Source: Acidobacteriota bacterium (lineage in GTDB: Bacteria; Acidobacteriota; Terriglobia; Acidiferrales; UBA7541). Taken from it: DNA of 64,000 bases. The stretch lies in the NCBI GenBank assembly GCA_023481105.1, contig JAMCWK010000136.1, positions 1 through 64,000 of the forward strand, in the 5' to 3' direction. How positions within the stretch are numbered: the stretch's first letter is position 1; each line of letters starts with the position of its first letter. Of the stretch, positions 19,232 to 23,560 are shown one piece after another. The notes under the pieces are model-generated. The model searched no databases. It was not told where the DNA came from and saw only the letters and a list, made by a program, of their open reading frames with translations. The position numbers and the translations under genes are program-made.

Positions 19232-20926
19232 TCACTTGTTGGGAGGAGGCTCGGGGATTGCGGCGCCGTCTTTGCGGGGGTCGGAGGCGCCGTAGTTGAC
19301 TTTCGCGGCAAAGTCTCTCAGAACCGCCTGCCCACCGCCCATTTGCGGAGAAAAGTCGCCGCGCAAAATGATCTTGTGACCCCGCGTTTCAAGCTCCGCG
19401 CGAACAGCAGCGGGGATGCGTGCCTCCATCTCTAACTCGCAACCGGTGAACGAATCCATGGTGAAGCGGGCTGCCTCGAGGGCGGCCTGAATGTTCATGC
19501 CGTGGTCCACGACGTTGGACACAAACTGCGCGTGAGCCTGCGACTGGTTCCATCCACCCATGATGCCGAAGGCAATGCGCACGTCGCCTTTCTCCATGAA
19601 CGCGGGAATGATGGTGTGCAGCGGGCGCTTGCGTCCGGCGAGGACATTGGGGTGGTTGGGATCGAGTGAGAAAAGCGCGCCACGGTTCTGGAGCGCAAAG
19701 CCAGTGCCGGGCGCCGACAGACCGGTTCCAAAACCAACGCTAGAATAGTTACTCTGGATGAGAGAAACCATGTTTCCCTCGCGATCCACCACGGTGAGAT
19801 AGACGGTGTCGCCACCAGGCCCGGGCGGCTTCCCCGCCGCGGGGCTGCAATTCGCTTTCGCTGCATCAATGAGCTTGCCGCGCTCGCGAGCGTAGTCCTT
19901 GGAAAGCATCCCGGCGACGGGCACTTTGCTGAATTTCGGATCGGCGACGTAGCGCAACATGTCGGTGTAGGCCAGCTTCTTCGCTTCGATGAGCGTGTGC
20001 AGCGCGCGAGCGGAGTTGTGGCCGTACTCGCTGATGGTGAATTTCTCGGCGATGTTCAGCATCATCAGCGCGGCGATGCCCTGCCCATTGGGCGGAATTT
20101 CGTACACCGTCCAGCCGCGATAAGTGGTGGAGATGGGCTCGACCCATTCGGCACTAAACTCGGCCAAATCCGCGGCAGTCATCGTGCCGCCCTTCTGTCG
20201 CATGAAGTCGAGAAGCTTTTTCGCGATTTCGCCGGAATAGTAGGCGTCGCGGCCGTGTGCGGCGATTTGCTTGTAGGTCCAGGCGAGATCGGGGTTGTGA
20301 AAGATCTCGCCCAGCTTGGGCACGCGGCCGCCGGGATAATACGTTTGCCGCAGGCCGGGGTCTTCTTTGGCGCGGCGCTCGCTGCTGGCCCACAGACCGG
20401 AAACGAATTCGGTCACGGGAAATCCCCGCTCCGCATAGTGGATCGCAGGAGCGAGGTCGTCGGCTAATTTGAGGCGGCCGAATTTGGCGAGAAGCTGGCT
20501 CCAGCCTTCGACGGCGCCGGGCACGGTGACGGCGTGAATGCCGCGTTGCGGCATTTCCGTAATGCCTTTGTCGAGCAGGAATTTCGCATTCAGATTCGCC
20601 GGGGCCCAGCCGCTGGAATTCAGGCCATAGAGCTTTCCAGTCTTCGCGTCATAAACGATAGCGAAGAGATCGCCGCCGATGCCGTTGGACATCGGCGCGA
20701 CCAGGCCCATGACCGCGTTGGCGGCGATGGCGGCGTCCACGGCGTGGCCGCCGCGCGCCAGAATTTGCGCACCGGCCTGCGCCGCCAGCGGGCTCTCCGC
20801 CGCGACGATGCCATTCTGCGTAATCACCATCGAGCGCGCCTGCGTACGATCCTGCGAATCGCTTTCGCTTGAAAGCATGAGCATCCCCACAATGACGAGC
20901 AAGATTGCGCTGCCGAGCTTCTTCAT
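19232..20926 (-). CDS. ggt: gamma-glutamyltransferase
   Basis: A 564-residue exported Ntn hydrolase that cleaves or transfers gamma-glutamyl groups (glutathione and related peptides) outside the cytoplasm. A signal peptide covers about residues 1-25. The large-subunit start is marked by IVAAESPLAAQAG and GGHAVDAAIAANAVMGL. Autocleavage should occur before Thr about 374 in GGDTVYLTVVD, and SNYSSVGFGTG and MGGWNQSQAH belong to the small subunit. ATG 20926 behind AGGAG (8-base spacing) is preferred over GTG 20935. The promoter-proximal part of this gene is duplicated at 21.6-21.8 kb. Confidence 0.93.
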   Translation of the reverse strand: MKKLGSAILLVIVGMLMLSSESDSQDRTQARSMVITQNGIVAAESPLAAQAGAQILARGGHAVDAAIAANAVMGLVAPMSNGIGGDLFAIVYDAKTGKLYGLNSSGWAPANLNAKFLLDKGITEMPQRGIHAVTVPGAVEGWSQLLAKFGRLKLADDLAPAIHYAERGFPVTEFVSGLWASSERRAKEDPGLRQTYYPGGRVPKLGEIFHNPDLAWTYKQIAAHGRDAYYSGEIAKKLLDFMRQKGGTMTAADLAEFSAEWVEPISTTYRGWTVYEIPPNGQGIAALMMLNIAEKFTISEYGHNSARALHTLIEAKKLAYTDMLRYVADPKFSKVPVAGMLSKDYARERGKLIDAAKANCSPAAGKPPGPGGDTVYLTVVDREGNMVSLIQSNYSSVGFGTGLSAPGTGFALQNRGALFSLDPNHPNVLAGRKRPLHTIIPAFMEKGDVRIAFGIMGGWNQSQAHAQFVSNVVDHGMNIQAALEAARFTMDSFTGCELEMEARIPAAVRAELETRGHKIILRGDFSPQMGGGQAVLRDFAAKVNYGASDPRKDGAAIPEPPPNK

Positions 20927-20985
20927 GCGAAGCACTCCTGTGAAAGGGGGACTTTAGAACGAAACGGGGAGCGAGGCAATGGCGG
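20790..20985 (-). repeat. direct repeat, copy 1 (ggt promoter and 5' end)
   Basis: About 195 bases covering the upstream region, ribosome binding site and first ~45 codons of ggt. They are nearly the same as 21590-21785, in the same orientation. By eye roughly 85-90% of positions agree, including ACGAAG-type flanks and CAGGAGTGCTTCGC before the start. Confidence 0.85.
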
Positions 20986-21098
20986 AGCCGCGCGATGGGA
21001 AGATGCGGGACTGAAGGCCGCCGCTACAATCTTGTCCCGGAAAAGTCCTGCGCGCGGCGCAGCTGGCCGGGCTTTTGCTGACGCCGTAAGCGTCTGGC

Positions 21099-21491
21099 CT
21101 ACTTCGCCGGCGCCGCCTGAGCGGATTTCACTTCCACGCCGATTACGTGCAGATTGCCCGCCAGCAGCTCCCAAGAATGCTCCGCGTTCTCCAACCAAAG
21201 CACAGTCCCCGGACGAAGATCGAGAATCTGTTTGCTGCCATCTGGCAGTGTCAGCTTAACCCGCGCCGAGCCCAGGCTGGCAAGGACAAAGGGCGGATGG
21301 GAATGCATCGGACTCTTTGCTCCGCCGCCAGCCCGGGCTTCGAATACCCGAACGTGTTTGTTTTCCAGCACAACGTTGTGCACGTCGGGATCCACGACCA
21401 CGGCATCCTTCACCTTCACCTTCTGAGCCAGGGCCGTCGTCAGCCCAACGCCGAGAATAAACGCAAGAAGTAAGCCGATCAGCCTGCGCAT
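21099..21491 (-). CDS. exported cupin-domain protein
   Basis: A 130-residue protein with a signal peptide (about 1-22, ending TALA) and one small cupin barrel. Motif 1 is HSHPPFVLASLGSARVKL and motif 2 resembles RPGTVLWLENAEHSWEL, so one or two His plus a Glu could bind a metal. Start ATG lies behind GGGAGGCAAAACT. It is sandwiched between ggt and the duplicated ggt 5' fragment, all on the minus strand, suggesting the duplication arose with its insertion. Enzymatic activity cannot be predicted. Confidence 0.8.
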   Translation of the reverse strand: MRRLIGLLLAFILGVGLTTALAQKVKVKDAVVVDPDVHNVVLENKHVRVFEARAGGGAKSPMHSHPPFVLASLGSARVKLTLPDGSKQILDLRPGTVLWLENAEHSWELLAGNLHVIGVEVKSAQAAPAK

Positions 21492-21546
21492 AGTTTTGCC
21501 TCCCGTGGCAGAAGTTTCCCCTGAAATTTCCGATTTCAGCTTGGTA

Positions 21547-21729
21547 CTAATGCACTAATCGGCTTCTTGTGTCAAGCCGAGCTTGCTGTGGCAGGTTTTC
21601 CGCCGCCACCACGCCGTACTGCGTAATCACCATCGAGCGCGCCTGCGTACGGTCCTGCGAATCGCTTTCGGCTGAAAGCATGAGCATCTCCACGATAACC
21701 AGCAAGATTGCGCTGCTAAGCTTCTTCAT
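21547..21729 (-). pseudogene. truncated duplicate of the ggt 5' end
   Basis: A 60-residue frame beginning MKKLSSAILLVIVEMLML is a close copy of the first ~45 residues of gamma-glutamyltransferase (signal peptide, the stretch through RSMVITQ, and VVAAE). It then loses similarity and stops. The ribosome binding site and upstream bases are also duplicated, so it could be transcribed and produce a short exported peptide, but no catalytic part is present. It is read as the remnant of a partial duplication. Confidence 0.85.
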
Positions 21730-21785
21730 GCGAAGCACTCCTGTGAAAAGCGGACTTTAGAACGAATTGAAGCGAGAGGCAATGG
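21590..21785 (-). repeat. direct repeat, copy 2 (with ggt fragment)
   Basis: This copy of the ggt promoter and signal-peptide region lies about 800 bases upstream of copy 1 on the minus strand. Between the two copies sits the cupin gene. Homology begins near the end of the serine hydrolase gene and stops where the fragment's reading frame diverges. Confidence 0.85.
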
Positions 21786-21801
21786 CGGATTGGAAGAAGA
21801 G

Positions 21802-22947
21802 CTACTGGTTTCCGGCAAAGAGTGGCGCGAAAAAATCGGCAATGGCTTCGCGGGCATCTTTGGCAAATGGCGAGCGGCTATGGTTGCAAATCATGGCGAC
21901 GACGATTTTGGAGTCGGGATGGAGCAGCAGCACGGACGTACCGCCCACCGAGCCGCCGGTGTGCATCAGAATGCGATGGCCCGAGGCATCCTTCAAAATG
22001 CTCCAGCCGATGCCGTAGCCGGTTTCCTTGCCGTCCGAAGTTTTCTGCGAAGTGAAGAGCAGCTCGAGCGTTTCTTTCTTCAAAAAGCCGGGCTGCAGGT
22101 GCGCGGAGCCGAAGCGGACGAGATCCTCGGGCGTGGACAGGAAGCCGCCACCGGCCCACTTGTAACTGCAGTCCACTGTGGGGGCGATGGCGAACTTGAC
22201 TTGCGGGTCGGTGTCGTAAAACTGCGTGCGTTGCGGATCGGCTGCGCCGGCGCGGTCCGGGCGCGTGCTTTTCATCTTCAGCTTTTTGAAGACCTTCTGC
22301 TCCATGAAGGAAAGGAATTCTTGCTTCGCGGCGGTTTCCATTACGGCGCTGATCAAATTCCAACCATACGTTGAGTAGGAATATTTCGTGCCGGGCGGTG
22401 CGACCAGCGGATCGTTTTCGAAAATCGCGAGGCCTTCACGCACACACTTGAATGGTCTATTCAACAAAAACTCGTCGCCCTTGTAATGGCGGATTCCAGC
22501 GAGATGTCCAGCAAGCAGCCGCGTGGTAATCACCGCTCCCTTGTCGGGAAAATCGGCGACATACTTCTGCACCGGCGCATCCAGATCGAGCTTGCCGCGC
22601 TCGACAAGCAACGCGAGGCCGGCGGCGGTGACGGATTTCGAAATGCTGCCGATGCGGAAACGCGTGGCCGTGGTCACAGGCGTTTGCTTTTCCAAATCGG
22701 CAAAACCGAATCCCTCCGACCAGACGATCTTTCCGTTCGCCGCCACGGCGACGGAGAGGCCCGGCACCTTCGGCGCGAGCTGAGCTTTGATGAGGGCACG
22801 GGAGCGCTCAATGGCTTCGGAAAGCGTGGTTGGTGGAGGAGCCGATGCGACGGGGGATTGAGGTTGCGCCCAAAAGGCTCCCGCAACCAATACAACTAAG
22901 CCAGCGAGGAAAAAAGAAAAGCGCAGACTTCGGAACCGAAGTTTCAT
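21802..22947 (-). CDS. exported serine hydrolase, class C beta-lactamase/LACTB-like
   Basis: A 381-residue protein with a signal peptide or membrane anchor (about 8-28). Active-site serine SISK (SxxK motif within IGSISKSVTA, about residue 100), a YxN-like element in YSYSTYGWN and HTGGS in place of KTG match the penicillin-binding-protein-like/LACTB group. It is probably a peptidase or esterase in the periplasm and not a resistance enzyme. It precedes the ggt fragment, cupin and ggt on the same strand. Gamma-glutamyl or peptide turnover is a loose shared theme. Confidence 0.85.
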   Translation of the reverse strand: MKLRFRSLRFSFFLAGLVVLVAGAFWAQPQSPVASAPPPTTLSEAIERSRALIKAQLAPKVPGLSVAVAANGKIVWSEGFGFADLEKQTPVTTATRFRIGSISKSVTAAGLALLVERGKLDLDAPVQKYVADFPDKGAVITTRLLAGHLAGIRHYKGDEFLLNRPFKCVREGLAIFENDPLVAPPGTKYSYSTYGWNLISAVMETAAKQEFLSFMEQKVFKKLKMKSTRPDRAGAADPQRTQFYDTDPQVKFAIAPTVDCSYKWAGGGFLSTPEDLVRFGSAHLQPGFLKKETLELLFTSQKTSDGKETGYGIGWSILKDASGHRILMHTGGSVGGTSVLLLHPDSKIVVAMICNHSRSPFAKDAREAIADFFAPLFAGNQ

Positions 22948-22990
22948 ACCGGTGATCCTTCGCTAGGCTTCTGACATTCCGCGAGCAACG

Positions 22991-23560
22991 TTACTTTCGC
23001 GGGCGCGATTCCGGCGGCACCATTTTGTTCACGCGGTAGTACACCACCAACTGCCCATAGTGCTCGCCGGCATGCTCGACAGCGGTGTTAAACAGGCCAT
23101 GATTCGTAACCGTCCAGCCGTCCACATGGATGGTTTCCGCCAGCTTTGCGTCGCCCATGGCTTCCATGGCCTTGGCGCCGTCGGCAAAACACCTCTTCAC
23201 GTAAGCGACCACATCCGCCTTGGTCTTGAAGTTGGCGCGCGGCGGATCCTCCTCCTTAGGGCGCAGCCCCTTCGCGACTTCCTGCACATGGCAGGCGTAG
23301 CCGGCGGCATGCAAGACCTGTTCGGCAAACGATCGTACTTCCGGAGCGGGTTTCCAATCGTACCTGTCAGCGGGAAAATCTTCGGCCATAGCAGCCAAGC
23401 GGCGTGCAACTCCGTTCCACTGTCTCACAAGGTCTTTCCCTGGTGTGCTGGTAGCCGGCGGCGCTTTGGGCGCTTGTGCGGCAGCAATTCCCGCGAACAA
23501 CAGCATCGCGCAAACCAATGTGATTGCTTGCGCGCGCATTCCGTTTTTCGAGTGAAACAT
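22991..23560 (-). CDS. exported DinB-family protein
   Basis: About 189 residues. A signal peptide (MFHSKNGMRAQAITLVCAML, then FAGIAAAQA) precedes a DinB-like four-helix domain with WNGVARRLAAMAEDFPADRYDWKP-type helix pattern, a central HAAGYACHV and a late EHAGEHYGQL. The three His in corresponding positions could bind a metal, as in the DinB/YfiT fold. Start ATG behind AGGAGAATCGA was chosen over a longer frame. Exported DinB proteins are common in Acidobacteriota; their reaction is unknown. Confidence 0.8.
   Translation of the reverse strand: MFHSKNGMRAQAITLVCAMLLFAGIAAAQAPKAPPATSTPGKDLVRQWNGVARRLAAMAEDFPADRYDWKPAPEVRSFAEQVLHAAGYACHVQEVAKGLRPKEEDPPRANFKTKADVVAYVKRCFADGAKAMEAMGDAKLAETIHVDGWTVTNHGLFNTAVEHAGEHYGQLVVYYRVNKMVPPESRPRK

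Follow-up and report, generated by a model that had tools for sequence, protein, structure and literature searches.

A cupin-like gene between two copies of the ggt start in an Acidobacteriota genome: probably an old insertion scar with a long target duplication

The start of the gamma-glutamyltranspeptidase gene ggt occurs twice in the window, by which we mean the whole 64,000-nucleotide stretch of Acidobacteriota DNA analysed here, and a small cupin-like gene lies between the two copies. Our preferred reading is that of an ordinary, old insertion scar, in which a foreign cupin cassette probably came in with a long target duplication and one of the two ggt starts (copy B) was left as a relic. 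The locus is a new example of a kind of rearrangement that has already been described.

The intact ggt gene (19232-20926, minus strand) encodes a protein of 564 amino acids that matches Pfam PF01019 over profile positions 2-512 of 512 (E 6e-154) and is 76-77% identical to the ggt protein of the sister species. Its beginning forms part of a 199-nt direct repeat. Copy A (20788-20986) and copy B (21591-21789) align without gaps at 87% identity, both on the minus strand and with a start-to-start spacing of 803 bases. Each copy comprises about 60 nt upstream of ggt, the Shine-Dalgarno region, and the first 46 codons of the gene, and the Shine-Dalgarno/start region is identical between them. When copy B was compared by BLAST with its own genome (154 contigs, 85% complete), the match had an E-value of 3e-66, far beyond chance, and no third copy was found.

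Copy A opens the intact gene, and copy B opens a truncated ggt frame of about 60 codons (21547-21729, minus strand), with its ATG at 21729 and its stop at 21547-21549. Homology to ggt ends after 46 codons and is followed by a stop codon; the tblastn match covers ggt residues 1-66, with the stop inside. An earlier note on this DNA had described a ggt start region present twice in the same orientation about 800 bases apart, a cupin gene between the copies, and an upstream copy that is a truncated gene. All of this is borne out by the alignment and by the coordinates given here. The repeat copies and the cupin-like, ggt, beta-lactamase, and DinB genes are all on the minus strand.

The DNA between the copies is an insert of 604 bp (20987-21590), both ends of which coincide with the ends of the repeat. 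Read from the ggt side, it contains a REP-like element, the stub of an M20-type peptidase gene, the cupin-like gene, and the upstream region of the latter. The cupin-like gene is the only gene present in it. A search of the insert for ggt sequence past codon 46, or from downstream of the gene, found nothing (p 0.8-0.96), and the idea that the insert holds the remains of a full second ggt was rejected for this reason. A transposon insertion was likewise rejected, with neither terminal inverted repeats (p 0.96) nor a transposase in the insert. No known RNA element was found at the locus.

The cupin-like gene (21099-21491, minus strand) encodes a secreted protein of 130 amino acids. In a whole-genome search its only relatives, at 67-69% identity, were in G037, G038, and G039, all of which belong to other families of the order. 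The gene is present in 4 of the 399 genomes of the class, the window genome included, with no further member in a sample of 396 phylum genomes and distant matches only in the sampled genomes of the same family. From this patchy distribution we infer that the gene was imported into the window genome, the three genomes being relatives and not the actual donor. The gene is under purifying selection, as dN is 0.23-0.27 against a dS above 1.7 where computable. Its protein had no Pfam match up to E 1 and a weak phmmer match to 3lag (E 0.026); it is called a cupin on account of an HSHPP-type motif and of the label in the earlier note, and we therefore speak of a cupin-like gene only. In G038 a resolvase-like recombinase gene directly adjoins the related cupin gene (L052, 1270-1848), which hints at cupin mobility. 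G039 carries two minus-strand cupin-like genes of the same family, separated by about 0.7 kb (L051, 3364-4839).

The peptidase stub (21036-21089, plus strand) is convergent with the cupin-like gene and reads PGKVLRAAQLAGLLLTP, followed by its stop. It matches the M20 C-terminus (ending PERAALLAGLLLTL) beside the cupin gene of G039, with a DNA alignment score of 33 against a shuffle maximum of 28 and at the same offset from the cupin stop. In G039 this neighbor is a Peptidase_M20 gene (E 1e-29), convergent with the cupin gene, which overlaps its end. At the same place beside the cupin gene, G037 has M20 gene remnants recognizable in translation, and G038 has a possible short one. Since the remnants occupy the same place in the relatives, the window cupin has kept part of an old neighborhood.

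At the ggt-side end of the insert lies the REP-like dispersed element of the GGNCTGAAGNCCGCCGCTAC type (21000-21029, plus strand). Allowing up to 2 mismatches, the GGNCTGAAGNCCGCCGCTAC pattern occurs at 54 places in the window genome, compared with 1 for a reversed control, and elements of this type are also found in G001, G002, G003, G015, and G024. The family is one of dispersed palindromes, with dozens of copies in the window genome and in related genomes; its copies may be mobilized by a RAYT-type enzyme. The type of the element is that of the recipient's genus; either the insert has therefore been in place for long enough to acquire the element, or resident DNA took part in forming the joint.

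For comparison we used G002, an Acidobacteria MAG from groundwater that belongs to the same genus and is the only other genus member found with the locus; in the remaining member, whose genome is 59% complete, nothing matched the ggt locus. G002 has a single ggt start, 76% identical to copy A over the 199 nt, followed by about 0.2-0.3 kb and then by a divergent glgB. Its locus has no cupin gene, no copy B, and neither the beta-lactamase nor the DinB gene, and homology with the window resumes only at glgB, the order of the outer neighbor genes being common to both. The cupin segment is an addition at the locus. The earlier note had proposed looking in a sister genome for the ancestral order, and G002, with one ggt start and neither cupin nor copy B, supplies that comparison.

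In the window, the stretch between ggt and glgB also holds a serine beta-lactamase-family gene (21802-22947, minus strand; PF00144, E 2.5e-68), which ends 12 nt before copy B, and a DinB-family gene (22991-23560, minus strand; PF12867, E 2e-12). DinB directly adjoins ggt in G015 (L038, where glgB lies beyond it) and in G031 (L039), which represent another genus of the family, and it precedes ggt in L117 as well; DinB is therefore an old neighbor of ggt. The beta-lactamase gene may be an addition too. Both genes are absent from the sister, and DinB lies beside ggt in other genera, so the interval 21802-23560 is prone to gene gain and loss. As the nearest comparison, G002, also lacks these two genes, it does not represent the immediate pre-insertion state.

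A three-way comparison of copy A, copy B, and G002 gives the branching order of the repeat. Over the 46 codons, the sister differs from both copies at 23 sites, compared with 7 A-specific and 9 B-specific changes; over the upstream 60 nt the corresponding numbers are 14, 2, and 5. The synonymous distance over the 46-codon stretch is about 0.33 between A and B and about 0.85 between A and G002. The 23 coding sites at which A and B agree against G002 indicate that the duplication is younger than the split from G002, or that copy B came from an unsampled relative closer than G002. Changes in copy A are mostly at third codon positions (2/0/5), whereas those in copy B are evenly spread (2/4/3) and include a Gly14 to Glu replacement (G14E) within the hydrophobic core of the signal peptide. 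This suggests a trend toward constraint on A and none on B, in small counts whose contrast gives a Fisher p of 0.31.

Taken together, these observations suggest the following course of events. A foreign segment, made up of the cupin-like gene with its upstream region and the stub left by its old convergent neighbor, would have entered between the beta-lactamase and ggt genes. On its entry, some 199 bp at the start of ggt would have been duplicated, producing the order 5'-copy B, 604-bp insert, copy A with ggt-3'. A single event of insertion with long target duplication would explain why the ends of the insert are the ends of the repeat, and the branching order of A, B, and the sister is compatible with it. 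One possible route is a break with widely staggered nicks, followed by fill-in on both sides of a captured fragment; an equally possible one is a tandem duplication that took up foreign DNA at its junction. The two cannot be told apart by sequence, and no terminal repeats or enzyme pointing to a mechanism were found. By either route the intact ggt would keep its complete promoter, start, and signal peptide through copy A, and copy B would be left truncated and then decay. The earlier note had also suggested a recombination scar, which agrees with a sister lacking both the insert and the second copy, with a patchily distributed cupin that carries a neighbor stub, and with a copy B that has no sign of constraint.

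Similar traces would be expected if the whole of ggt had been duplicated in tandem earlier, or if copy B had come from outside. In the former case, a cupin segment would later have replaced most of the upstream gene and spared its start. The synonymous distance of 0.33 between A and B leaves time for such a two-gene period, and many of the A-B differences are synonymous. However, the insert holds nothing of ggt past codon 46 or of the sequence downstream of the gene, and two events would be required, together with a chance coincidence of the end of the insert with the end of the repeat. We consider this history unlikely, and of the alternatives it is the one that we rank first.

Next in our ranking, and slightly less likely, is that the ggt start of an unsampled relative was already joined to the cupin gene and entered with it by homology-facilitated illegitimate recombination anchored in ggt. 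The 13% difference between A and B and the foreign nature of the insert would fit such an import, and anchored events of this kind have been described (PMC5361080). It would also require a close relative as the donor, A and B being closer to each other than either is to the same-genus sister, yet the cupin gene occurs only in other families. Moreover, the signs of lost constraint are confined to copy B, and a joined arrangement of ggt start and cupin was not found in the genomes searched.

That copy B has been kept because it provides the cupin gene with a promoter or a translated leader is improbable, and we place it third. Copy B and the cupin gene share a strand, with copy B directly upstream; 55 nt separate the stop of its frame from the cupin start, and its Shine-Dalgarno/start region is identical to that of A. 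Against this, its upstream half is no better conserved than its coding half, with B-specific changes at 5 of 60 and 9 of 138 positions, respectively. The insert also brings about 99 nt of cupin upstream region of its own (21492-21590, minus strand), with a perfect TTGACA at 21570-21575, 84 nt before the cupin start (-84), and three of the related cupin genes have promoter-like sites at a similar distance, TTGAC-17-TARGAT at -89 to -125. The -10 element of the window candidate is weak, and no consensus sigma-70 promoter or terminator was called. Similarity between the upstream DNA of the window cupin and that of its relatives was not significant, so the promoter resemblance is one of position only. 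The cupin gene is probably expressed from its own upstream region, in which the TTGACA site is a candidate promoter only. Transcriptional read-through from copy B is possible; the donation of a promoter by copy B, which the earlier note had raised, is possible but unsupported, given the TTGACA of the insert and the unexceptional conservation of the promoter half of B.

The upstream region 21492-21590 contains an 8-bp near-direct repeat, ATTAGTGC/ATTAGTAC, and two short palindromes, TCGGCTT...AAGCCGA and CTGAAAT...ATTTCAG. A 16-bp motif in this region is exactly repeated nowhere else in the genome. We rejected ATTAGTGCATTAGTAC, upstream of the cupin gene, as a shared operator: it is the only exact copy in its own genome, its inexact matches are no commoner than in the control, and it was not found together with TTGACA in 60 relatives.

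A more elaborate version, in which the DinB-ggt interval is a recurrent site of gene capture (first of the beta-lactamase gene, then of the cupin), repair duplicates a target of about 200 bp, and copy B, now acting as a leader or promoter, couples the expression of the cupin to ggt, seems to us very improbable. Last in the ranking, an assembly artefact or chimera is hardly credible: the assembly is incomplete and fragmented (154 contigs, 85% complete), but the copies lie on one contig and have diverged by 13%, the outer neighbor genes are ordered as in the sister, and a genus-typical REP element sits inside the insert. From a divergence of 10-15%, the earlier note had likewise argued that the copies are no assembly artefact of identical repeats, and that argument is sound.

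The locus has its closest counterpart in Helicobacter pylori, where insertions with long target duplication are known (Nobusato et al. 2000, as summarized in PMC1643837 and PMC3031569). As in the cases outlined there, long direct repeats flank a gene that the related genome lacks, the repeated sequence is single-copy in that genome, and neither transposon ends nor a transposase are seen. The differences from the Helicobacter cases, as far as these accounts describe them, are that a 0.6-kb cupin-like cassette takes the place of restriction-modification genes, that the repeat is old, its copies having diverged by 13%, and that two species are compared here, whose loci differ in other genes as well. 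In the same accounts, the link with restriction-modification is frequent and not strictly defining, and in the literature found, the captured genes that long target duplications surround are mainly those of restriction-modification in Helicobacter. The present example from Acidobacteriota, in which a small cupin-like gene still has the stub of its former neighbor attached, suggests that ordinary genes arrive by the same route too.

The locus also recalls homology-facilitated illegitimate recombination, which can leave orphan gene ends after an anchored insertion (PMC5361080), in that new DNA adjoins the truncated remains of a gene already resident. Here, however, the same resident sequence flanks the insert on either side and ggt itself survives intact, and the related cupin loci show no homologous anchor, no ggt having been found close to the cupin genes of G037-G039. 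As a decaying 5' fragment of ggt, copy B also resembles a partial gene duplication or truncated pseudogene, and the locus illustrates how a truncated gene fragment with a promoter and signal peptide can originate; unlike in a partial duplication, a foreign gene lies exactly between the fragment and its parent.
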